Of a DNA stretch of 64,000 nucleotides, positions 2,286 to 43,600 are shown piece by piece. The notes under the pieces are model-generated. The model was given only the letters and a program-made list of their open reading frames with translations, searched no databases and was not told where the DNA came from. The stretch covers positions 124,001 through 188,000 of the forward strand of contig WFMF01000131.1 of the NCBI GenBank assembly GCA_011033025.1. The letters run 5' to 3'. Source of the stretch: Beroe forskalii. Its lineage: Eukaryota; Ctenophora; Nuda; Beroida; Beroidae. How positions within the stretch are numbered: position 1 is the first letter of the stretch; each line of letters begins with the position of its first letter. The position numbers and the translations under genes are program-made.

Positions 2286-5200
2286 ATGTCCAGCAACTCC
2301 ATAACAGGTATGAAATTCGCTGTTGTATCTGGACTGCTAAGAAGATACTCTCACATTTTCATCCTGGCTCTTTGGCTAAACTTCAGCAGTACGAACTGTC
2401 AAACAAAGAATACCCACGTTTCAACCTTCGAGTTATTCACAGACCTGGACTACCCTGAAATCGAATACTTGGAACAGACGAAATGGCATGGATTCTGGCA
2501 CAGGAAGTGGAAGGGATACGATTTTAATCATGATAATTATAAGAAAGCTAAAGTGTCCCCCAAGAGCTGCAAAGTCACCGAATCTGGTGCACTTGATTGC
2601 TCGGCTGTCGCCTCATCTGACAGAACAATCGAAATAATTGGGAACGATGAAATCTTGCGCATTAAATTTGATTCTTTTCCGAGTCAAAATAATATTCAAG
2701 TCCTCCGATTGATCTCTCTGGCTGAATTAGACGACATTGACGATGAGGCATTTGATAATCTCTCTAAACTAACTGAACTGGTTATATCCGGAACAAAGAT
2801 ACAACAGGTTCCGGTATTTCACAAATCCATGGAATCTTTGGAACTTATTGACTTTTATGATAACAGCATTGACAAAATATTTGCTGATGCATTCACAAAC
2901 TGCCCTAATCTGAAGCAGGTGAATCTAGGGAAGAACATGCTAAGCTACATCGCTCCAGCAGCCTTTAGTGGCACTAAAACCGAACTCCTCACAGTTCACA
3001 ACAACTCACTCACTTACGTGCCAGATTTGGAAGGCATGGGAGATTCTCTCCAATACTTCGGCTTGGAACACAACCATATTGATGTTGTGGGAGAGTATAG
3101 TCTCCAGGGATTTTCGTCGTTACAACACCTCAATTTGAGCTACAACCCGATTGAGCTGTTCGAACACGGATGTTTGAAGTCATTAACCAAACTCCGATTT
3201 CTGGATATGATTTTTCTGTCTGCTCCAAAGACAGATGTGCCCTACAATCTCTTGGATGGAGCTCCGGAACTTGTCCACATCGCGTATGATCACTCCTCCT
3301 CACTCATTTTCTCTGGAAAATCACTTGAAATCACACCCAGCCTACGAGGATTTTCTGCCCGATACTGTGGAATTGAAGGACTCGATTTCCGTTCTTTCGA
3401 AGGGGAGAATGCCTTGACACATTTATGGTTGGACGGCAATGCCATCACTACTCTACATCACTCCATGTTTATCCATACTAATTTTGAGAAACTAGAAAAA
3501 CTCTTCCTCAGTAACAATGATATCAAAGACATTGAATGGTTTGGAGACAGCGAGTTCAATGATAGAGGTCGCATCATTAAAAAGTATTTCGTCTATGAGA
3601 ACGAGACTAGTTTCCCCTCCCTACCTCGGTTATCCGTTCTGAACTTGGATGGAAATGCGATATCAGGGATTCGGAATGACACTTTCAAGTCACTGTCAAA
3701 CCTTAGGGAACTCTATATCAACAGGAACCGACTCAAGGACTCTGAAATTGAAAGTTCTGCATTTGATGGTTTGAGCAGTTTGAAAATTTTGATGCTCGAG
3801 AACAATAATCTGAACTCAGTTCCATTTGCGGTGTACTCCTTGAGTAAGCTATGGAAATTTAGCATGAAGGGCAACCAACTGAATTTCATTCTGTCTCACG
3901 ATTTCACCGAACTCACCAATCTGAACATTCTCAACATTGCAAACAACAGAATAATATTGGTTGAAAATGAAGCCTTTCCCGAATCAATAGAAGAAATCTA
4001 CATGTCTCAAAACAAGTTTGATTTCGTCGATGTTGAAGTATTTCACGGTCTCAGTGAGTTGAAAGTCCTTTCCTTATCGGAAAACAGAATAACTGTACTA
4101 CCAAAAGATGTCTTCTCCCAAAATGTCAAATTAGAAAGCATCTATCTGGATAACAATTTCCTGAGATTCATCAACGAAACGCTTTTTCAAAACTGCAAGC
4201 TGACAGGGGATATCCACTTGCAACACAACCAAATAGCCTACATTGCTGACAACAGTTTTCAACATGTTCGAGAAACCAAGAACTTCCTTTTGAATAACAA
4301 TGAGCTCTATGAGATACCATCCAGTGGGATGTTTCAAAACATGGCTGTCAGAGAGAAAATACGGCTTGACCACAACAAAATCACACAGATTCGATCAAAC
4401 ACGTTCAGTGGACTGTCATGCCAGCTGTTTAGGATCAACGATAACGATATTGTAGAGATTGAGAGTTTGGCATTCAATGAAATAACCGTGACTTCGAATT
4501 GGAAGAAGTTGACTACAGTTTTTGACATAAGCAACAATCCTCTGAGTCGTTTGCATGAACGGGCTTTTAACAAAATTTCCGTGGATAGCAGAGCTGCATT
4601 TTCTAATCTGAAATCTCTCAAAGTCATTCCATCATTTGCATTTACTGAGTTCTCAGCTGAAACCATCGTATTAAGTGGAAATCATGTGAACTTTATTGAA
4701 TCACATGCCTTCCAAGATGTGGTTGTAAAAGCAGGACTATACCTGAATGACATCGAGTTGAAATGGATAGATAGGAAGTCAATCGTTGGTTCTGTAAAGG
4801 AGTTGTATTTGAATGATAATCAGATCTCAAAAATACCAGCTGAGGCGTTGTTTTATGTGACAGGAAATTCTGAAGTTTATTTGAGCAATAACAAGATCGA
4901 AGTTGTCGAATCAAATGCTTTACCCGAAACTGATGACTTCGTTGACTTATCGAACAACAAAATTGCAGTTCTCACCGAAAGAATGTTCGCAAAAAATGAA
5001 AATACGAAAACCTTGCACCTTCAATCTAACCAGATAAGCCGGACAGAGGATAATGTTTTCCCAGAAATGTCAAAGCTTGCTGAACTTGATTTAAGTGATA
5101 ACGAACTCACCGAGATTTCTGATAACTTGTTCAGTGGTCTGGAATCTCTTACTACTCTTGATTTAAGTAATAACAAAATCAGGCACTTTGGGGCTCAAAC

Positions 5201-6392
5201 TGATCTATCAAATTTAGAATCTATCAATCTTAGTGGCAATAAAATTTCGCAGTTGGATCCAACACTGTTTGAAAGCACTGGTATACCTCTAACCACCCTT
5301 ACTCTGGATGATAACAATCTATCTTGTGGGTGCGGTTTATTTCGAGCATTGGAAGCAGTGAAAGATGCAGTGACTGGGGCTTCCTGTTCTAATCCAACCC
5401 ATTTAATGGACACCCTGCTTAATCACGATGAACAGGGCAGTCCCATGTATTTTCTCAGCATCCCTCAAGACAGCATTGTTTGTGAACCTGTTGAAATATC
5501 CACTGAGAAGAGTAGTGAGAATTCCTTCAGGTTGGAATGGAACCCTCCACCAAGCATAGAATTTAAAGGTACTTCTGATACCACTTACTGTTATGAGCCA
5601 AACTGCCCTTCAACACAGATCAGTTATAAAGTCCTGTGCAGTGATCAAGATGAAGCCACTGTGTTTTCAAAGACCAATTTGCAGGATGCGTCTGTTGAAA
5701 TAACCTTTGAAGATGATCTGCCCTACTTTTGCTCGGTTGGTCTTGACTTCCATTCAACTGAAGAAGTTTCCAGTAGCTGGAGTTCGATAGTTAGCTACAA
5801 AGCTGAAATTCCCGCCGGTGATGAGTTTATTTGCCAGGGTGGAGATGGGTGTTATGTTCTACATGCTGAATATTACAAGATGAGCCGGGATGTGGATCTG
5901 TTTAATGCCTATGGACCAAGGGAAATCATTAGATCCCCTCAGTACAGGCGAAATATGCTGCTCAACTATTTATACAAGGAAGACTATTCTGATGAAAATG
6001 ATGAATTAGTAAATTGGTACGGTCCTGTTGAAGACAAAAATGCTCTCACAAAAAGCACCTTGACACTGGGAAAAGAAATCGAGAATGGTTATCGTTTGTA
6101 TACTGAACACTTTTACCCTGTTGAAGATGTGTTTGAACAATTCTCTCGAGATTGTGATTTTAATGTTAGACCATTAGGATTCACTGCAAAATTATCCACA
6201 TCATTTGTCAGAAGTCAGCAGGAAGTACTCAAACTGGGCATGGTTGATGAAGGGTGGGTTTACCTTGGAGGGAATCTGATAGTAGAACTGATTGCCCCAG
6301 ATGGCAATGAAGAACAAGTTTGTACAGAGATAGAGTTTTTGGATGAGGTTGCTCAAGTTTGGATTGGTGTCATGGCCGAAGAAAATTGCCAA
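2286..6392 (+). CDS. Exon 1: signal peptide, about 30 leucine-rich repeats, LRRCT, FN3-like domain
   Basis: One 4.1 kb exon encodes residues 1-1369. LRRs of the 'L..L.L..N.I..I....F' type run from roughly residue 110 to 1010. A cysteine-rich LRR C-terminal cap begins near residue 1010 ('[10 protein letters not shown]') and runs to about 1065. A fibronectin-III-like stretch follows ('[12 protein letters not shown]', 'ISYKVLCSD') to about residue 1180. The final ~190 residues match no family I know. The frame runs on to a stop at 6411, but 'CAA|gttagt' at 6392/6393 is a phase-0 donor that joins in frame to the acceptor at 6847/6848 ('atttcag'). Confidence 0.85.
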
Positions 6393-9300
6393 GTTAGTCC
6401 AATTGAAAATTGAGAATCTATACATGATTTTTCTCTCAATTCTCACACTGTGCTAAAATTTTGTTGGGATCCTCCATTAAAACTTTCAAAGAAGCTGATG
6501 ATCAAAGTGTGGAAGGATAAACGATGATTGCTGACTGATAACAACATTAAGATGCAATATGCATGCTAGAAATGAAATGCATGAAAATCTCCAATTAAAT
6601 TTGAAGATCACTATAATGACTCAAAAACCAAGGTACAATTAATGAAGCTGATCGAAGAAAAAACATGATATTATATTATCTAAATATCTAAATTCATCTA
6701 TTGGCTCCCTGCATGATCATGAAATGGTGCATTATATCAATTTATTATTTGGTCACATACTTATTCGCATGTTTGTGTCACACCTAAACTCTTTTAAAAT
6801 TGAACTTCCTTTTTAAATGACCTGAACAATGAACATAAAAATTTCAGATTGACAAGTCTACAGATGATGGAATTGAAGTTCAAATCAGTAGCGCCAGCAA
6901 TAAACTGGAAATATTTATTAGTCAACGAAGAAATTGTGAATCAAAATTGTTTCTTGAGATGACAAACTTCAACCTTGTTGCTGATACTGACTTCGACAAC
7001 CAAGAGCCAATATTCATTTTTGATACATCAGAAGAGAAGCCAATTAGAGGCTTCATTGCATCCTTAGACTTGAGCAATCCCTTCACCACTGACTCGTACC
7101 GAATAGAAATCCTAAATGGCAATGGATACTTTCGTTTCATAGATGACCCTGATTTAGTTGTTTCTGTCCCTCCACCAAAGGAAGAAGTTGATGCTGGATT
7201 TGGTATTCCACCTTATGTCCCATATGAAGAATCAACCTCCCCAGAGCCCTTAACAAAGCGAACAACATTCAACATCAATAGCAACAACGTTATCATTATA
7301 CTTGCAGCACCATTAGACTTTCGCCTGCAAACAGAATCAAGGATAGCATATAGAATAAGTAGCTCTCTACCTGATGGGACAACTTACTCTGGGACTGGTG
7401 TGATTCTTATCAGGATATCTGACTATAACAACCACTGGCCAAGTGCCATAAAGGGGAAATATTCATGGGATGGAAACGAGTGTGCACTCTCTACTGACCC
7501 TCTAGTTGTTGAAGCCACTGATCTGGATGAAACCATCAATGCTGAGTTGGAATATTATATTGGGAGTATCACACGACCACAAAACGAAACATTTTACAAG
7601 GAAGTCCAGCAGTTGTACCTCTATGAGGATGTAATGTTGGATTATGATGTTACTGTCCACATTCTGGACAAAGGGACTCCCCGACTGGGAAGAACAACTC
7701 ACGTCAGCGTCACTCTGAGTGCTGCATGTGTCACCACACTGGGGTTTGAGATCGGTCTAGCCACAGGGGACTTCTTTGTCAAAGCTCCTGGGTACTACTC
7801 GGCTTCTAATAAGAAGTATTGTGACCCATGTGAGGCAGGGTATTATTGTCATGGCTATGGGCTCCGTGCCCAGTGTACCACCTGTGACTTTGAGCTCTTA
7901 CAACCCAACGGATCGTATGATATTGTGGAGACAGTATCTCCTTGTGAACGAAGTAAGACTGAATTCTCATTTGGAGGGGCGTCCGAGTGCAGCCCATGTA
8001 AAGATGGTTGGATTTGTGAGGAAGGAGTGGCACTCCCCATACTGGATCACTCAATGTACATTGAAACGTGCTCCATTGAGAGTTGTCCTGAACCTCTGCC
8101 ATGCCCTGCTGGTGCAGCTTGCATGTTCGGGATAAAGCAGGATTGTGAACCAGGTACATCTGGCAATGGGGAGCGGTGCGTGTTCTGTCCACCAGGAAGA
8201 TACTCTGATGAAGTAAATGCTGCGGAGTGTGAGTGCTGCCTTCCTGGATTTGAATCATCCCACAAGAAAGCTAGTTGTATACCCTGTGCATTCAACGAGA
8301 TCTCATATGGGTGTCAGCAATGTGTTCCCTGCCCCAGCAGTGAAGAGTGTCCTTGTTTGGAGTCCAATCCCTGCTTTGCAGGAGTGCAATGTGTCAATGA
8401 TCCCAATTCAGATGATGGGTTCCTCTGTTTGGCATGTCCGGAAGGCACAGAAGGTAATGGGAGAGAATGTGATGATATTGATGAGTGTGAGGTGGCTGGG
8501 GCCTGCTTTGAGAGCTGTCATAACAAGGAGCATGGTTATGAGTGTGGTTCATGCCCAGCTGGGTACGCAGGAGAAACACCATCAGGTAGATAAGATGGTT
8601 GTGTGTAGTGATCATTTTAAATCTTACTGATTGCAATGAAATTAGGAGGGTGAATGGACTCAAAATTTGTATCATATGGCAATTTTTCAGAATCAGAGTG
8701 AATAAAAATATGCCTGGTTTCGATAACACACTGTTCAACTTTTATTCAAAATCCATTGGTGATTTCAGCTTTAATTTCTGAAACGGGTTGCATTTTTCAG
8801 GTATTGGCAAAGAGTATGCTGAAAACAACCAGCAAATCTGTACAGATGTGGACGAGTGCCTCGTGAACAATGGTGGATGTGGGGAGCATGTCCTTTGTTT
8901 TAACAACATTGGTAGGTATTTGCCATCTTATTTTACCTACTTTTACTTTATGAAGTGATTTTAATTTCTCATAGGTAAGTTAGATTACTGACCAGATTTT
9001 TATTGCAGTTTCTTTTTATGAGATAGTTCGTAAAAGACTTCTTACCTTGAAGGTGAAGCACCGACATGTGAAGGGTGTGAAGATGGATATGCTGTACTAG
9101 AGATCGACAGCATTGTCACCTGTAAACGTGCAAATCCCTGTGAAGAAGCAGACGCTTGTGCAGCCAATGCCCGGTGTGTCTTCATCAAACCTCTGCATCA
9201 TGCCTGCTTCTGTAATATCGGCTATGCAGGTAGGCGAGAACTATTGGTTAACAAGCTAATCAATGATTGGCAAAAGAAAAGTGATGTAGCAAAGCATGGC

Positions 9301-23697: not shown

Positions 23698-25851
23698 CTA
23701 CATTTGTTTCATAACGTAAGCGTCAGCATACAGATGTTCCTGGTCAGTGTCATCTGCTTTAACAACCAACTGCATTAACTCGTACTGCTCTGAATCATCA
23801 ACCGCATTCTCCTTTTCTGCATTCTTCTCTCGCTCCTCTTCTCTCATTTCTTCCCGGGGAATTTTCGCCTCTTCAATTTCCAATGTCTCTCTGGACTGCT
23901 GTTTGGCTTTCATTTGGAATAATTTCATCACGGATGATGATAGTGCTAGTAATAGGGCAAGTGAGCCAATACCCAAAGCTGCGGCCTCAATTGGTGAAAC
24001 TGAATCTTTCGCACAGTTATTTTCAGAACTGTGTGTTATGTCAATCCATACCTTCTTTCCTGTTGCACTGCAATAGTACTGCTCTGTTGGGAAACATGGC
24101 GTTCCACAGTCCACTCCGTAATACCCTGCAGCGCACGTTTTGCAATCATCACCGGCCCAATTGTAGTAACACACTTTATTCCCGATCTCATCACATTTGA
24201 ATTTATCCTTTTCTTCGATACATTTCACACTACAATTACCAGATGGGTAAAAGTTTCTTGCGCATTCCTGGCATTGCAATCCAGTCCAGCCATCAATGCA
24301 CTGATCACAATTCTCCCCTTTCCATTTTTCTGAACAAATAGAGCAATTCAAACCTGACCAGTTGTCATAGCAAAGTTTTTGGCCTTGATCTGAACAGTTG
24401 AACCTTCCCAACTCTGGTTTGCATTTGATATTACAGACTCCTTCTGGATAATAGTTCTCTTCACATTCCTGGCATTTAGCGCCAGTCCAGCCCTCAATGC
24501 ACTGATCACAATTCTCCCCTTCCCATCTTCCAGCACACTCATTGCAATCCAAACCTGACCAGTTTTCATAGCAAACTTTTTGTCCTTTATCAGAGCAGTT
24601 GAACCTTCCTAACTCTGGATTGCATGTAACATTGCAGACCCCATCTGGAAAATAGTTCTCTTCACATTCCTGGCATTTAGCGCCACCCCAGCCCTCAATG
24701 CACTGATCACAATTCTCCCCTTCCCTTCTTTCAGCACACTCATCACAATACAAACCTGACCAGTTTTCATAGCAAACTTTTTGTCCTTGATCAGAGCAGT
24801 TGAACTTCCCAACCTGTTGTACACATTCCACAGTGCAGTTTCCATCTGGGTAATAATTGTCTGCACATTCCACACAATCCAAGCCAGCCCATCCCACCTC
24901 ACACACATCACAGTTCTCTCCTGTCTTATGTTCAGCACACTTCTTATCTCCTTCTGCACTGCAGGTGTAGTTACCTTGAACTGGTTTGCAGTACTTGTTA
25001 CATGTACTTCCATACCAGTGATTCGAGCAGTAGTTACAGCCCGGCAATTCATGATTTTGCGAACATGATTCAATTTTAATCTCTATTATAATATACCCAG
25101 GATAAGTTATGTACATCTTTTGAGTGATCCAATCATTATACTTGTCAATTTTATAGAATTGTATCTCAAAATCAGCGTAATCTTTTATGAGTATGCTTTT
25201 GGACTCGCCCTCATTATAGTCCCAAAGTTCAAACCGAAGCAGTGTTGATGTATTAGTCAAAAAGTCAATCCTTTTTGGAGAGTTGAGTTGTGGTACGTTT
25301 CTAAACATAATCGTGCTTTCATTGTCTATATGGTCCGTTTCATTGATGCTCCATATATCTCCTGTTTTATCGTACACTGCTATGTCCTTGAAGAAGATGT
25401 CACATTTTCCTGTTTCACTAGAACCGTCACATTTCGCATAAGTGTGATATTCAATGAACTTCAGATAGCCTATTCCTCTCTGCTCAGTTGGTTCCTGTGT
25501 TAATAATGAATTAATGAATCAGTCAAATACCCCCTCCCCCATCGTGGGGGAGGGGGCTCTTTCATGGGCGATAAGAGGTAATCCAAAAATTTCTAAAACT
25601 TCACAGATGTAGCGGTTAGACATGTTGGCTTTTTAGCTGTTAGTGGTTAGCCTTGCTCGATTAAAATAATCACTGATCAGGCTATCAGACATCAGTAATT
25701 ATGGGGAAGTGTCCAAATATGAACAGAGTTTATACTTTTATACCACTCAACTGAATGAATTTGATTTAGTATTAGTAATCTATGTCAAGGAAAAGTTAAC
25801 AATTCTAAGGATCATACTTACAAGGAGTAGCAGAATCAGGAGTATCACCAT
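23698..25851 (-). CDS. Notch-ligand-like transmembrane protein with six DSL-type modules (copy A)
   Basis: Two exons: 25822-25851 (ATG at 25851, 'MVILLILLLL') and 23698-25494, phase 0; 608 residues. After the signal peptide comes an MNNL-like N-terminal region ('GYLKFIEYHTYAKC', 'CDIFF'). A DSL module near residue 165 follows: 'CSNHWYGSTCNKYC', then Cys spacing x8, x7, x8. Four more DSL-spaced modules follow ('CADNYYPDGNCTVEC', 'CEENYFPDGVCNVTC', 'CEENYYPEGVCNIKC', 'CARNFYPSGNCSVKC'), each separated by a short EGF-like piece ('CDQCIEGWTGAKCQE'). A sixth ('CAAGYYGVDCGTPC') has Trp where the fifth Cys should be. A transmembrane helix ('IEAAALGIGSLALLLAL') and an acidic/basic tail of about 90 residues complete it. 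Canonical Delta/Jagged ligands carry one DSL followed by EGFs. Function as a Notch ligand is inference. Confidence 0.82.
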
Positions 25852-26809
25852 CTCATGTGTGTTGAGTTCAAGAACACAAACTGACTACGCAAGGTTTTCA
25901 ATTGTGGGAATAGGTTTATGCACCATGTATCACTTCTGTTAATCGTAACAAACTATTACAGAAATATGCAAATAATGTAAATGCAAGGCTGGTATCTTCG
26001 ACTAACATCCTGACATGGTTGATCATGAAGAATTGTGATGGCTGGATGGCGACTATTCTACTCACTTTACGATTTACTTCTAAACAGCCGAACATTGAAC
26101 AGTATAAACTGGTTTAATGAGACTCCGACTATTCGGTGCATACCGACTCCAATCGAGTATATCCCAATTCGTTGGAAACGTAGGTGAGAGTTATTTTCCT
26201 AAACATTCTGTTATCAGCTAGGATGGATTGTAAATATGTTGAGGATGTTACGGAGGATTGGATCCTCAAACAGTGCTCCCTTACCCACTCTGACAGCTGT
26301 GAGTTATACCCTGGCTCTGTCGGGCGTTGTGTCACTTTTATTCAATATTTAAATGTATTTGTCACACATGTACTTGTGTGGAACTGGATAGTTATCTGAG
26401 CGATAGTTACAACTTGGTCCTTCGAAATACTGGTCACATGATATTTTCATCCTTACATCAAGATAGCCATACGGATTGCTCAAGTTAAAACGGTAATTGA
26501 TTCATGCATTACTGGTTTTGATATTATTGTAGGGTATCACAAGGTTCAAGTGACGTATATGTTTATATTTTGCAGGCAAACTCAACACACGCCAATTTCT
26601 ATCCCACACCTGGAAAGTATGAAAAGTATATTGCGCGCATTATAAGATGCGAGCCTTTATTAATCTCTTTATCGATCGATGCATGGCCACATCTGTGTGG
26701 TCTCACGTTGACATCAGTGGTGAAGCCCGGAAATGTTTCATGAACACTTCGTGTACCTAGGAAACCATTGTCATTTAACTTTTTCAACCGCGCCCTCAAA
26801 TTTAATTGT

Positions 26810-29289: not shown

Positions 29290-31430
29290 CTACATTTGTT
29301 TCATAACGTAAGCGTCAGCATACAGATGTTCCTGATCAGTGTCATCTGCTTTAACAACCAACTGCATTATCTCGTACTGCTCTGAATCATCAACTGCATT
29401 CTCCTTTTCTGCATTCTTCTCTCGCTCCTCTTCTCTCATTTCTTCCCGGGGAGTTGTTGCCTCTTCAATTTCCAATGTTTCTCTGGACTGCTGTTTGGCT
29501 TTCATTTGGAATAATTTCATCACGGATGATGATAGTGCTAGTAATAGGGCCAGTGAGCCAATAACCAAAGCTGCGGCCTCAATTGGTGAAACTGAATCTT
29601 TCGCACAGTTATTTTCAGAACTGTGTGTTATGTCAATCCATACCTTCTTTCCTGTTGCACTGCAATAGTACTGCTCTGTTGGGAAACATGGCGTTCCACA
29701 ATCCACTCCGTAATACCCTGCAGCGCACGTGTTGCAATCATCACCAACCCAGTTGTAGTAACACGCTTTATTCCCGATCTCATCACATTTGAATTTATCC
29801 TTTTCTTCGATACATTTCACACTACAATTACCAGATGGGTAAAAGTTTCTTGCGCATTCCTGGCATTGCAATCCAGTCCAGCCTTCAATGCACTGATCAC
29901 AATTCTTCCCTTCCCATTTTTCTGAACAAATGGAGCAATTCAAACCTGACCAGTGTTCATAGCAAACTTTTTGTCCTTTATCAGAGCAGTTGTATCTTCC
30001 TAACTCTGGTTTGCATGTAACATTGCAGACTCCATCTGGAAAATAGTTCTCTTCACATTCCTGGCATTTAGCGCCAGTCCAGCCCTCAACGCACTGATCA
30101 CAATTCTTCCCTTTCCATTTCTCTGAACAAATAGAGCAATTCAAACCTGACCAGTTTTCATAGCAAACTTTTTGACCTTGATCTGAGCAGTTGTATCTTC
30201 CTAACTCTGGTTTGCATGTGATATTACAGAATCCTTCTGGATAATAGTTCTCTTCACATTCCTGGCATTTAGCGCCAGTCCAGCCCTCAATGCACTGATC
30301 ACAATTCTCCCCTTCCCTTCTTTCAGCACACTCATCACAATCCAAACCTGACCAATTTTCATAGCAAACTTTTTGACCTTGATCTGAGCAATTGTACCTT
30401 CCCAATTCCTGTAGACATTTGATATTACAGACTCCATCCGGGTAATAATTGTCTGCGCATTTCATACAATCCAAGCCAGTCCATCCTACCTCACACACAT
30501 CACAGTTCTCTCCTGTCTTATGTTCAGCACACATCTTATCCCCTTCTGCACTGCAGGTGTAGTTACCTTGAACTGGTTTGCAGTATTTAGTACATGTACT
30601 CGTGTAGTAGTTATTTGAGCAATAGTTACAGCCTTGTCCTTCGAAGTGTTCAGAACATGATACAATTCTTATCTTTATTTCAAGGTACCCTCCATTAGAC
30701 AAGGTGAACTTTCGAGGAGTCCAATCATTAATCTTGAAAATTTTCGTGAAGTGTATCTCAAAATCAGCGTGTTTTTCTATCAATTTACTTCCGGACTCGC
30801 CCTCATTATGATCCCAAACCTCAAACCTAAGCAGTGTAGATGAATTAGTCGACAAGACAATCTCTTTTGCAGTGTTCAGTATCGGTACGTTGCTAAACTT
30901 AATCGTGCTTTCATTTTCAGATATGTAGTTCGTTTCATTGATCCTCCATATATCTCGCGTTCTATCGTACACTACTATGTTCTTGAAGAAGATGTCACAG
31001 GCTCCACTTGCACTAGAACCAACACATTTTCTCTTAAGTATGATATTCAACGAACTTAAAATATCCTGTTCCTCTCTGCTCTGTTGGTTCCTGTGTTAAT
31101 AATGAATTAAAGAATCGGTCATAATACGTGTTTCCCCATCGGGGGGGGGGGGGATTGCCTCTTCCATGGGCGATGAGAGGTGATTCGCAATTCTAAAGAA
31201 ACATTCACAGATGTAGCAGTTAAGTTAGACATGTTCGCTTTTACCGGTCATTGGTCAGCCTTGCTCAATAAAAATATTCAATTATCATTCTATGGGGAAG
31301 TTGTCCAAATATGAACAGAGTTTATACCACTCAACTGAATCAAATTTGATTTAGTAATCTATGTCAAGGCAAAGTTACCAAATCTAAGGATCATACTTAC
31401 AAGAAGTAGCAGAATCAGGAGTATCACCAT
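29290..31430 (-). CDS. DSL-repeat Notch-ligand-like protein, copy B, with an N-terminal frame break
   Basis: Exons 31401-31430 (signal peptide, identical plan to copy A) and 29290-31090. About 18 codons into exon 2 the frame meets TAA (31034-31036), and one extra A in 'GAAAATG' shifts the frame relative to copy A. Downstream, the frame is open for 586 codons. It contains the same DSL1 ('CSNNYYTSTCTKYC'), four DSL-spaced repeats, the sixth Trp-variant, the transmembrane helix and the tail, all close to copy A. Either this is a very young pseudogene, or the break is a sequencing error at the A run. No ATG restarts near the break. The conserved remainder argues that loss of the frame, if real, is recent. 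Confidence 0.7.
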
Positions 31431-32833
31431 CTTACGTGTGTTGAGTTCAAGAACACAAACTGACTACGCAAGGTTTTCAATTGTGGGAATAGGTTTATGC
31501 ACCATGTATCACTTCTGTTAATCGGAACAAACTAACTCAGAAATATGCAAATAATGTAAATGCAAGGCTGGTATCTTGGACTAACATCTTAACATGGTTG
31601 ATCATGAAGAATTGTGATGGCTGGATGGCAACTATCCTACTCACTTTGCGATTTACTTCATTCTAAACAGCCGAACATTCAACAGTAAACATTGGTTTAA
31701 TGAGACCCCAACTCTTCGGTACATACTGAATCCAATCGAGTATATCCCAATTCGTTCGAAACGTATAGGTAAGAGTTATTTTCCTAAACGTTCTGTTATC
31801 AGCTAGGATGGACTGTAAATATGTTGAGGATGTTACGGAGGATTGGATCCTCAAACAGTGCTCCCTTACCCACTCTGACAGCTGTGAGTTATACCCTGGC
31901 TCAGTCGGGCGTTGTGCCACTTTTATTCAATATTTAAATGTATTTGTCACACATGTACTTGTGTGGAACTGGATAGTTATCTGAGCGATAGTTACAACTT
32001 GGTCCTTCGAAATACTGGTCACATGATACATCATCCTTTCATCAAGATAGCCATACGGATTGCTCAAGTTAAAACGGTAATTGATTCATGCATTACTGGT
32101 TTTGATATTATTGTAGGGTATCACAAGGTTCAAGTGACGTATATGTTACTTTTTGCAGGCAAACTCAACAAACCCCAATTTTTATCCCACACCTGGAAAG
32201 TATGAAAAGTATATTGCGCGCATTATAAGATGCGAGCCTTTATTAATCTCTTCATCGATCGATGCATGGCCACATCTGTGTGGTCTCACGTTGACATCAG
32301 TGGTGGAGCCCGGAAATGTTTCATGAACACTTCGTGTACCTATGAAACCATTGTCATTTAACTTTTCCAATTTCCAACCGCGCCCTCAAATTTAATTTTA
32401 CAGCTCACTGTTAATTACACTATTACTGTGCCATGGGTGGGTTGACCTGTACACCTGTTGTTATGTTATCACACATAAATATCATTACCCAGGGTCAATA
32501 AACAGGTTAATGACATTATTACCTCCATTATATTCATTGCTTGTAGCTAAATTTCATGTCAATTAACTAATTAATGGAATAATGACATAATTACCATTGA
32601 AACTGCTGCTATGAAGTCAAAATCATCAATCAATAATACTACATGAATATATTGTAACATGATTATAAAACTTGATTCTCTATAAAACGTTATTATTCTC
32701 TGATCCTATTCTAAAATCACATTTCTGAATATCATGCTCGTAAAAATTGGCAGGCTGGGAAAAGTAAAGAGTAGGCGATTAAGCATATACATAATATTAG
32801 CTCCCTTAATATGGAAGATAAGATACCGTGACG

Positions 32834-40600: not shown

Positions 40601-43600
40601 TCTTACTGTATACTAATGAACAGATGAGTTCAAATACGCGAACTCAAATTACCCTGGACTCCTCCATATATTATTTTGATGGAACACATGGTGCATATGT
40701 CAGACTAAAGAGCTCCTTTTCGCCGAATTTCAAATTCTAGGAACCCCCAGCAATGGTTTTTCAAAGCTGTAGTTGTTCACTGAAACCAAATCCTTGCTAA
40801 ACTTCATACTTTTATGAGCAGTAAAACGCGACAAAATGAATTTTACGTCAAATGATTATTTCAGGTCTGGGTGCTGGTGCAGGGAGACCCTCCCCTTATT
40901 CCGCGACAACAGGTGTTACTCCTGGGATGAGAAGGAAAGTGAGGGTGCCATAGTGACACCCACTGTCACCAAGGTGATACACAGACTTCCGTTTCCAAGG
41001 ATATTCAACGTGAGTTCAGAGGCATTGAAATATATGGGCTACCCTCAGGGGGGGGGGCATTTGAATGTGTCGTGAATTTCATTAATTCAACTTCTAGATA
41101 GATTTCTTGCTTTTTGTCTTCCTTAATTAATTACATTTCCTTATGGATTCAAATTAGAATTATTATTAGGAAAGTTTTCTGGGTTTTTAAGAGTTGACAC
41201 AGCAGATTTATTGAAAGAAGTTCATGCAATCATGCATTAATCAGTGCCATTACCGGTGATGAGAAAGAGTTTCTCTACAGACTACCCTAGCAAACTTTCG
41301 CTAATATCCAGGAACTATGACTATCCCTCCTGTATACCTCAGTCCAGGCTCTCCTTTATCATATTCATACAACAGCTACAAAGTGAACGTTTATTTGCAG
41401 GTAACGACTGTCTTCTACACTGCTGCCTTCACTGACGTGGATTACATCAGTGTACCGACCTTCGACATTCAACCTCATCTGCTCAGGTATGGTTTAGTCT
41501 TACTCCAAACCGTGTGTTCCAAGCCCGTCCCAAGCAGATTTTACGAGGTGGCACTGAGAGCATTGGCTGGGCCTGAATTTTGTTGGCGTATGCTGCATAA
41601 AAATAAAAGTATGGTTTGGAAATGTAGCATTAGCGATGATCATCCTTGTAATACAGAATGCGGGCTTGTTACTCACGACGATAATCACATGATTTTCGAA
41701 AGCTTCTGATAACATCCCTCTCGTATATCTGTAGAACTTACATCGTTTAAAGTTCATTCTTCAGAATATCGAGTTGTTGCTCACGAGATCGGGCATGAAG
41801 CCAATAAAACCCAGATAATTAGATAAAAACATTTCCTTGCGATTTTATACCAGGTTTTCCGGTTTAACAAACCGGTTTACCCAGTGCTAGAACATTGGAT
41901 AATGTTCAATGAATATGCGGTTTGCCGTCATTACAATTTCCATGGTTAATGATAATAAAATTCCTACTTTCAAACGCCCATTTTACTCCGCATAACATAC
42001 CGATAAGAAACCGGTTTTGTTTTCTTTCCAGACTAAAATCAATACGCGTGGTCAGATGTTTTCTTGAAAATATCGTTAAGCTTTAGATTTTAGCCCATTA
42101 ATAATTTGCTACATCATATTCAACTGTACTTATATTGACTAAAGTAAAGAACACAAAGTGATTACATCTTGAACACCATGGCTGCTGAATCCCGCATTGA
42201 AGTCACCAAGTTCACGGAATACCTGCGAATCAGAACGGATCACCTCTCCCCAGACTACGTTTCCTGCAGACTCTGGCTCCTGGACTACATCTCCGAGATA
42301 GGACTGGAAGTGGTGGTGGACAAGGAGTTTACCCCCGGATTCCCGGTCGTTGTAGCGTCCCTCCCTGGCTCGCGTCCAGATCTCCCCTCAGTCCTCCTCA
42401 ACTCCCACATGGACGTAGCTCCGGCAGATCCAGAAGAGCAGTGGACGCACCCTCCTTTCGCAGGTCACGTGACGCAGGACGGTGCAGTGATTGGTCCAGG
42501 AGCCGAGGGAGGCATTGTGATTGGTCGAGGAGCGCAGGACATGAAGTGTGTGGGCGTGCAGCACTTGGAGGTATTAAGACGCCTGCGGAGGGTGGAGACG
42601 CCCCCTCTCAGGACTGTGTATGTGAGCTTTGTTCCTGATGAGGAGCCGTTGGGAAAGCGAGGAATGGCGTTGTTCTGTGAGAGTGAGGAGTTTAAAGCAT
42701 TGAGAGTGGGCGTGGTTCTGGACGAGGGCTTGTCGAGGGAGGACGAGGCTATGAATATTTACTATGGAGAGCGGCATTTGTTGTGGGCCACGGTCAGTTT
42801 CAGAGGGAATCCCGGGCATGGCTCCATGTTCATTGGTGATACGGCCGTGGTGAAGATGACTAAGTTTCTGAAGAAAGCTCTAAAGTATCGTGAGAAAGAG
42901 GAGGAGAAGAAAGGAGATTTGATTTCTAACGTTAACACTCTTAACATCGGCATGGTCCATGGTGGGGTGCAGCCCAATGTCATACCTCACGAGATCCAAG
43001 TTACCCTCGACTGCAGGATTCGTCATCAGGACAACTTCTCAGACTTCAAAGACATGCTACAACGATGGGTGAACGAATCGGGTGGAGGAAATGTTGAAAT
43101 AATCAACGAATCAGAGAACAACAACACATCGTGTATCGAGCCCACAGATAAGTGGTGGTGTGCTATCTTGGCAGGGATCCAGGAACATTCCATCACCCTT
43201 ATCCCCCAGATTTTCCCCGCCAACACGGATTCCAGGCTGTTGAGGAGGCTCGGATTACCGTGTTACGGTTTCTCTCCGATTAACAACACCCCTGTCCTGC
43301 TCCATGATAAGGATGAGTGGCTGGGGGTGGACACTTTCCTAAGAGGGGTCGATATTTTAGAAGGGGTTGTCAGGAATCTGGCTAGTGTCGAGGAATCTTA
43401 AAATTATTCTTCCTTGTGTGGAGGAATCTTGAAATTCTTGAGGAATCTTTACATTCGTCAGGAATCCTGAAGTTCTTGAGGACAAGCCATATATTCTGGC
43501 CTGTGGGAGGGATTGAACTGTTAGAAGCTTGCATGCAGATTAAGACAATGCTGCTGAGGACTGTGGTAAAGTAGTAAAGTGGTTTTTTTGAATTCGTTTA

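Follow-up and report, generated by a model that had tools for sequence, protein, structure and literature searches.

Proteins with several DSL domains are already a known kind. Nematostella genes with 1-11 DSLs, one of them with one MNLL and three DSLs, were described by Gazave et al. 2009, and the question whether these multi-DSL genes are real or misassembled was left open there (PMC2770060). In Capsaspora, a receptor tyrosine kinase with two DSLs has been mentioned in a review (PMC4810162), and in Hydra a second, secreted protein with one DSL has been described (PMC3180645). The Delta proteins of Amphimedon were found to lack the residues used for binding in bilaterians, and they nevertheless go by the name of ligands (PMC3482393). 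In ctenophores, Notch has been reported as present and Delta/Jagged as not found in a study including Beroe ovata and Mnemiopsis (PMC8166818); Delta/Jagged were also not found in two further accounts (PMC5356439; PMC11193209), and the above review gives a Delta orthologue in Pleurobrachia and describes Mnemiopsis as without diagnostic Delta domains (PMC4810162). As no Delta or Jagged was reported, Notch signalling in ctenophores has come into question. Ctenophore DSL proteins may, moreover, have been overlooked because the searches also required MNNL and EGF.

In our study, a multi-DSL gene of Beroe forskalii has been analysed in a window of 64,000 nucleotides (bases 124001-188000 of contig C172) and compared with the whole assembly of 216 Mb and 1134 contigs. 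Thirteen innexin matches were found in this genome; sponges are not known to have innexins. A sponge host, at first suggested by the absence of MNNL and MamL-1 matches and by the single-DSL ligand without EGF, was therefore rejected. The mitochondrial contig (C1134, 13,339 bases) contains a COX1 in which TGA stands for Trp and which, judged by eye, seems strongly divergent, and no tRNA was detected in 2844 bases near it (ARAGORN, bacterial code). Ctenophore mitochondria are extreme. The nuclear-receptor zinc finger zf-C4 had no match in the genome, and no control matched either; its absence from the nuclear receptors of ctenophores and from the genome of Mnemiopsis has been reported (PMC3038971). 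The missing zf-C4 speaks, within this limit, against a cnidarian or bilaterian, and the three features together point to a ctenophore.

The gene, its domains and its neighbours

The gene lies on the minus strand with the coordinates and strand given by the initial annotation, and its parts are listed below. Bit scores refer to an HMM built from seven bilaterian DSLs only.

25851-23698, minus strand: multi-DSL gene, two exons, about 608 residues
25822..25851, minus strand: exon 1, ATG, MVILLILLLL, short, hydrophobic and signal-peptide-like, with the donor GTAAGT next to it
25495..25821, minus strand: intron, 327 bases, GT...AG (GTAAGT...ACACAG)
23698..25494, minus strand: exon 2, 598 residues and stop
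25066..25494, minus strand: C2/MNNL-like N-terminal domain, exon-2 residues 1-143
25030..25065, minus strand: half DSL/EGF piece between the C2-like domain and DSL1, by sequence
24910..25029, minus strand: DSL module 1, Pfam DSL positions 1-44/46, 23.7 bits
24745..24867, minus strand: DSL module 2, 19.6 bits
24544..24666, minus strand: DSL module 3, 20.5 bits
24343..24465, minus strand: DSL module 4, 23.3 bits
24142..24264, minus strand: DSL module 5, 14.8 bits
24013..24135, minus strand: DSL module 6, Trp for the fifth Cys, 5.0 bits over its first part only, the weakest
23926..23991, minus strand: transmembrane helix, hydropathy 1.92 over 20 residues
23701..23925, minus strand: cytoplasmic tail, 75 residues with 8 Lys and 3 Tyr (YELM, YADA, YVMK)

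The splicing is predicted from the sequence, and the 10-residue hydrophobic exon 1 is a putative signal peptide. The half piece before DSL1 is absent in two relatives (L013 and L024), in which the C2-like domain directly adjoins the DSL, as in Jagged.

The profile search gave a Pfam DSL match over six stretches of the open reading frame (E 4.4e-34), in agreement with the six DSL modules proposed at the outset. The whole ectodomain scored 64.7 bits with the bilaterian-only HMM, as against a maximum of 1.2 bits in 500 shuffles with every Cys kept in place and 5.9 bits in 500 free shuffles; cysteine spacing alone is therefore an insufficient explanation of the score. Further, a profile of the repeats alone, searched against solved structures, found Jagged-2 as the sole match at E <=0.01 (0.0017 and 0.0023). 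By profile the modules are thus DSLs beyond generic EGF, so that the profile check suggested earlier does not refute the assignment. The cysteine pattern of module 1 is the classic one that had been claimed (C-x8-C-x3-C-x8-C-x7-C-x8-C), and the Trp of module 6 does stand at the fifth Cys position. The spacing in modules 2-5, described as the same, is nearly so, with x9 and not x8 between the first two cysteines. The transmembrane helix and cytoplasmic tail were likewise rightly recognised. The repeats score as laminin-type EGF too (EGF_laminin, 35.8 bits for the whole window protein against a cut-off of 21; single stretches over the cut-off were zero in this copy and four in the second copy), and the initial description as DSLs alternating with half-EGF pieces is therefore a fair one. 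Pfam searches for EGF and hEGF, carried to E 1 for the window proteins and to E 0.05 for ten relatives, gave no match, and the EGF-type matches of the relatives were of laminin type only, except one weak teneurin-EGF match in L043. VWC, also searched to E 1, had no match in the window proteins, nor had Ig or lectin domains in the window proteins and the ten relatives.

The N-terminal domain occupies the position held by MNNL in Notch ligands. A profile of this domain together with DSL1, built from 18 members, was searched against the PDB and matched Jagged-1 (E 1.5e-9), Jagged-2 (5.8e-8) and 'neurogenic locus protein delta' (2.4e-6). The aligned part of Jagged-1 comprises the latter half of its C2 domain and the DSL. 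The domain alone found no Jagged in the PDB up to E 10. With Pfam, MNNL matched 0/18 members and C2 matched 4/18, the best at E 0.067. In hhalign, the domain aligned with seven ligand C2 domains with a score of 20.1 (P 0.018), and 1 of 300 column-shuffled decoys was as good as the real profile. Hence we have named it C2/MNNL-like and not MNNL, an assignment which is weak by sequence: the MNNL-like region expected before DSL1 is present in the right place, and its identity as MNNL by sequence alone is unestablished, with no Pfam MNNL match and no Jagged match on its own.

A second copy of the gene and two relics of a further family member are present in the window.

29290..31090, minus strand: tandem paralogue, exon 2, with an in-frame stop after EPTEQRGTGYFKFVEYHT
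31401..31430, minus strand: tandem paralogue, exon 1, matching exon 1 of the window gene
26352..26612, minus strand: relic of a further family member, last part of the C2-like domain with the beginning of DSL1 (tblastn E 1.7e-13)
31940..32145, minus strand: matching relic beside the second copy, in two frames (tblastn E 1.8e-8)

The tandem paralogue also matches Pfam DSL over six stretches (E 2.0e-35). The two copies are 89% identical over 3152 aligned bases, and the translations of their exons 2 show 80% identity. The stop of the second copy falls at codon 19 of exon 2, and this copy is therefore probably disabled, or the stop is an assembly error. The degraded pieces of the further member lie upstream of each of the two copies. 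Elsewhere on the plus strand of the window, three other reading frames were seen: one of 1375 residues with 16 LRR_8 stretches (2286-6413), one of 548 residues in which cadherin and ephrin-receptor-like domains were matched weakly and below cut-off (6947-8593), and one of 410 residues for an M20 peptidase (42169-43401).

A family of DSL genes and the Notch pathway of the genome

In the genome, the DSL profile was matched at 83 places with E <=0.001. At the wider limit of E <=5 there were 148 places, out of 150 scored among 189 candidates. At least 107 places on 35 contigs reached the Pfam DSL cut-off, two of them only together with their neighbours; among 14 control genomes searched at E 5, two matched DSL and none exceeded the cut-off. 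Sequence was read for 32 stretches, which cover 28 of the 35 DSL contigs and include the Notch contig and a repeat of the window; the set comprises neither the other seven DSL contigs nor some additional places on C462 and C358. The stretches contain 43 stop-to-stop reading frames with the DSL cysteine pattern (two of which are the window genes again). A transmembrane helix was predicted in 27 of the 40 frames scanned, the number of DSLs ranges from 1 to 7, and the end of a C2-like domain precedes the first DSL in 27 of 41 by a regular expression which missed the window gene itself. The remaining family frames are incomplete, interrupted by frame breaks or of another build. The gene count may be too high because of uncollapsed alleles, and some paralogue pairs could be alleles. 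The initial annotation had seen in the locus a different way to build a ligand; the DSLs and the layout of C2-like domain, DSLs and transmembrane helix bear this out, and the protein belongs to a large family and is not one odd ligand.

Two members deserve separate mention. On contig C479 (L016), 13 DSL modules, many nearly alike, are divided as 7 + 6 between two overlapping frames, pointing to recent module multiplication with a frame break. On contig C355, a divergent reading frame with a transmembrane helix and a short tail (L043:2444-3016, minus) is unlike the main family and has two DSL-like modules by cysteine pattern and one by Pfam. No bilaterian-type ligand with DSL and EGF was noticed among the DSL stretches read (28/35 contigs), although an intron-split DSL may escape such a search.

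The loop between the third and fourth cysteines differs clearly from that of the bilaterian ligands. In seven bilaterian ligands it has 11 residues, RPRDDxFGHY or close variants, with FGH near its end, whereas in 118/118 family modules it has 7-9 residues and FGH is absent. These modules were picked by a cysteine regular expression accepting loops of 5 to 13, with L020 (a small reading frame), L040 (a gene on C569) and L044 (a repeated stretch) excluded. In bilaterian ligands the RPRDDxFGHY loop of the DSL contacts Notch. With the loop shortened and without FGH, the face which contacts Notch in bilaterians is therefore changed. As the Amphimedon Deltas also lack the binding residues, such a loss is compatible with Notch binding.

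The tandem pair L040 and L048 on contig C569 are apparently intron-split genes with a single DSL, whose 11-residue loop ends in GHYT, without F. A transmembrane exon was found in this pair and no EGF was seen, by eye and without a gene model. From their sequence they look like the more canonical candidate Notch ligands of this genome.

The search for a Notch gene in the same genome, proposed as a check at the outset, led to Notch-like exons: on contig C269, EGF repeats are followed by two LNRs and then by ankyrin repeats, the LNRs identified by Pfam and the EGF and ankyrin repeats by eye from exons, without a full gene model. An LNR match on C657 was rejected as Notch, as its reading frame was read by eye as a GNPTAB-type protein. 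CSL and MIB_HERC2 (Mind bomb-type) domains are also present in the genome. MamL-1 and MNNL gave no match in it, and no control matched either of them.

Evolution of the N-terminal domain and exchange of tails

The C2-like domain is mostly faster-changing than the DSLs. Between the window copies, the second of which is probably broken, dN/dS was 0.85 for the C2-like domain, 0.18 for DSL1, 0.19 for DSL2 and 0.27 to 0.41 for modules 3 to 6. In 11 of 13 paralogue pairs, which share genes, dN/dS was greater in the C2-like segment, limited to its coding portion, than in the 150 codons after it, a stretch which in some pairs extends past the DSLs; the exceptions were L032/L033 (3.04 vs 3.23) and L037/L038 (0.24 vs 0.25). 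The value for the C2-like domain was nominally above 1 in 4/13 pairs, on small counts. Pooling of seven gene-disjoint pairs gave nonsynonymous to synonymous changes of 164:68 in the C2-like domain against 125:88 (Fisher p 0.0097, rounded counts), and four of these seven, omitting three pairs with the C2-like part cut short or doubtful, gave 108:27 against 56:37 (p 0.0015). The DSL region had a dN/dS of 0.15-0.53 in the 10 pairs, out of 11, for which this ratio is defined. Further, in the reading frames with at least three modules, the nearest relative of a module was of the same class in another frame for 18/21 first, 40/45 middle and 16/21 last modules, a comparison to which recent duplication contributes. 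For the transmembrane helix with the tail, dN/dS was 0.20 between the window copies and 0.28 for L025/L027, and near 1 for L027/L028 (1.06, 46 codons) and the L013 pair (0.94, 36 codons).

One clear mosaic was found among the relatives. The C2-like domain of L019 is 79% identical to that of L015a and 34% to that of the window protein, whereas its transmembrane helix and tail are 88% identical to those of the window protein and 22% to those of L015a; hence, a tail has been exchanged between ectodomains. A second exchange is possible in L018 (L018:4515-6792, C636, minus), which has a window-like C2-like domain (65%) and, beyond a frame break, DSLs together with a long tail in which the motif VIYSKI occurs twice.

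The tails themselves differ widely. On contig C998 (L015:152-3340, minus), a tail was observed with nine YAD[LI] at 11-residue spacing, forming eight full ITAM consensus pairs, and with eight further repeats of TTYATLNDHE type. This frame, L015a, is a single one of 1063 residues, and its tail contains eight overlapping [DE]xxYxx[LI]x7Yxx[LI] motifs. In comparison with shuffles it has 20 Yxx[LIVM] where 4.4 are expected, 9 ITIM-like motifs where 1.3 are expected and 8 ITAM-spaced pairs where 0.09 are expected; the motifs are tandem copies and the shuffles therefore overstate their rarity. The full ITAM consensus was present in one of the six tails scanned (L015a only), and L015b and L035 showed an excess of Yxx[LIVM] with two loosely spaced pairs each and no full ITAM. 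The window tail has no ITAM or ITIM-like motif and one Yxx[LIVM] against 0.6 expected; four aligned relatives of its class carry YxN at the first Tyr. Tails of 2-26 residues were found in L021 (two reading frames), L022, L023, one frame of L026 and L029.

Possible role of the family and known systems

We consider that the window protein may be a lineage-specific type I recognition or adhesion receptor which arose from a C2-DSL ligand, and not a classical Notch-activating ligand, a reading which we hold with evenly divided confidence. The ancestor, a Delta-like protein with a single C2 (MNNL-type) domain and a single DSL, would have been duplicated many times; multiplication of its DSL module would have produced a stiff, disulfide-rich rod or stalk, possibly with extra contacts, and diversification of the C2-like tip a variable recognition surface. 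Tails would be exchanged among members and would relay a signal through tyrosine motifs, and the proteins might serve at cell contacts in self/non-self or cell-type recognition. Activating and inhibitory immune receptor families swap tails between ectodomains, and the tail exchange together with the ITAM array of one relative fits receptors better than ligands. The pattern of duplication, diversified tip and exchanged tails suggests recognition receptors at cell contacts. It is a more tentative proposal that a ctenophore family of dozens of C2-DSL receptor genes, with a diversifying tip and interchangeable tails, of which one or more bear an ITAM array, constitutes a self/non-self or immune system, and that the separate single-DSL pair could be the missing Notch ligand.

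The main rival to the receptor reading is a multivalent Notch ligand, in which several DSLs would raise the avidity for Notch and the family would supply the Delta/Jagged function missed by standard searches. In keeping with it are the Notch-like exons (coding for EGF, LNR and ankyrin repeats), CSL and MIB_HERC2 in the genome, the PDB structures of Jagged and Delta matched by the C2-like domain with DSL1, and the 8 Lys of the tail, which could take ubiquitin, as well as the Amphimedon Deltas, which are regarded as ligands although they too lack the binding residues (PMC3482393). We regard it as rather unlikely, in view of the loop shortened and FGH missing in every one of the 118 modules, the lack of classical EGF repeats by Pfam, the many variable paralogues with an exchanged tail and the more canonical single-DSL pair on C569.

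It is distinctly less probable that the proteins are homophilic adhesion or matrix-linked molecules whose modules are a mere stalk and whose tails do not signal. The laminin-type EGF scores of the repeats, the several relatives with tails of 2-26 residues and the dN/dS near 1 of the transmembrane helix and tail in two pairs (few codons) would be expected of such molecules, but the same segment of the window class looks constrained elsewhere (0.20, 0.28), other tails are long and Yxx[LIVM]-rich, and the tail of L019 has been exchanged. An assembly artefact or collapsed repeats, by which the number of modules and copies would not be real, is highly improbable. The same question was left open for the multi-DSL genes of Nematostella (PMC2770060), and the frame breaks in L016 and L018 and a count inflated by uncollapsed alleles point in this direction; against it, the modules keep their positional identity across reading frames, the DSL regions have a dN/dS of 0.15-0.53, the same exon 1 and splice signals occur at both window copies and the family is spread over 35 contigs.

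If the receptor reading is true, the Notch-ligand domain would have been put to a new use, in a family of DSL receptors that exchange their tails. DSL proteins are in any case abundant in this ctenophore host, which gives named genes to the question of the missing ligand, and the family bears on whether multi-DSL genes are real. In the literature searched, no description was found of a family of this extent, of its tail exchange and ITAM array, or of such genes in a ctenophore host.

Among the known systems, the multi-DSL genes of Nematostella have tandem DSLs in common with the window protein; they were compared by architecture only, belong to another phylum, and their transmembrane helices, tails and family evolution are not in the description compared. 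AmqDelta4 of Amphimedon has a DSL without EGF repeats, and its plan is nearest to the single-DSL genes of C569; it differs from the window protein in having one DSL, and that genome has five Deltas and not dozens (PMC3482393). The Capsaspora kinase shares several DSLs in a receptor ectodomain, whereas it has a kinase domain and EGF repeats, and no expanded family is mentioned in the relevant passage of the review (PMC4810162). With Delta and Jagged, the window protein shares a DSL, preceded by a putative C2/MNNL-type domain, as well as type I topology and Lys in a short tail. It differs from them in six DSLs in place of one DSL with EGF repeats, in a loop of 7-9 and not 11 residues between the third and fourth cysteines, and in having no Pfam MNNL or VWC. 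Receptor families with ITAMs or ITIMs, and allorecognition receptors like Alr of Hydractinia, are characterised by tandem paralogues, a faster-changing tip and exchanged tails. Those receptors are built on Ig or lectin folds, whereas a DSL/C2-like ectodomain is used here; the tandem paralogues, the fast tip, the exchanged tail and one relative with ITAMs are the features which the family has in common with them.
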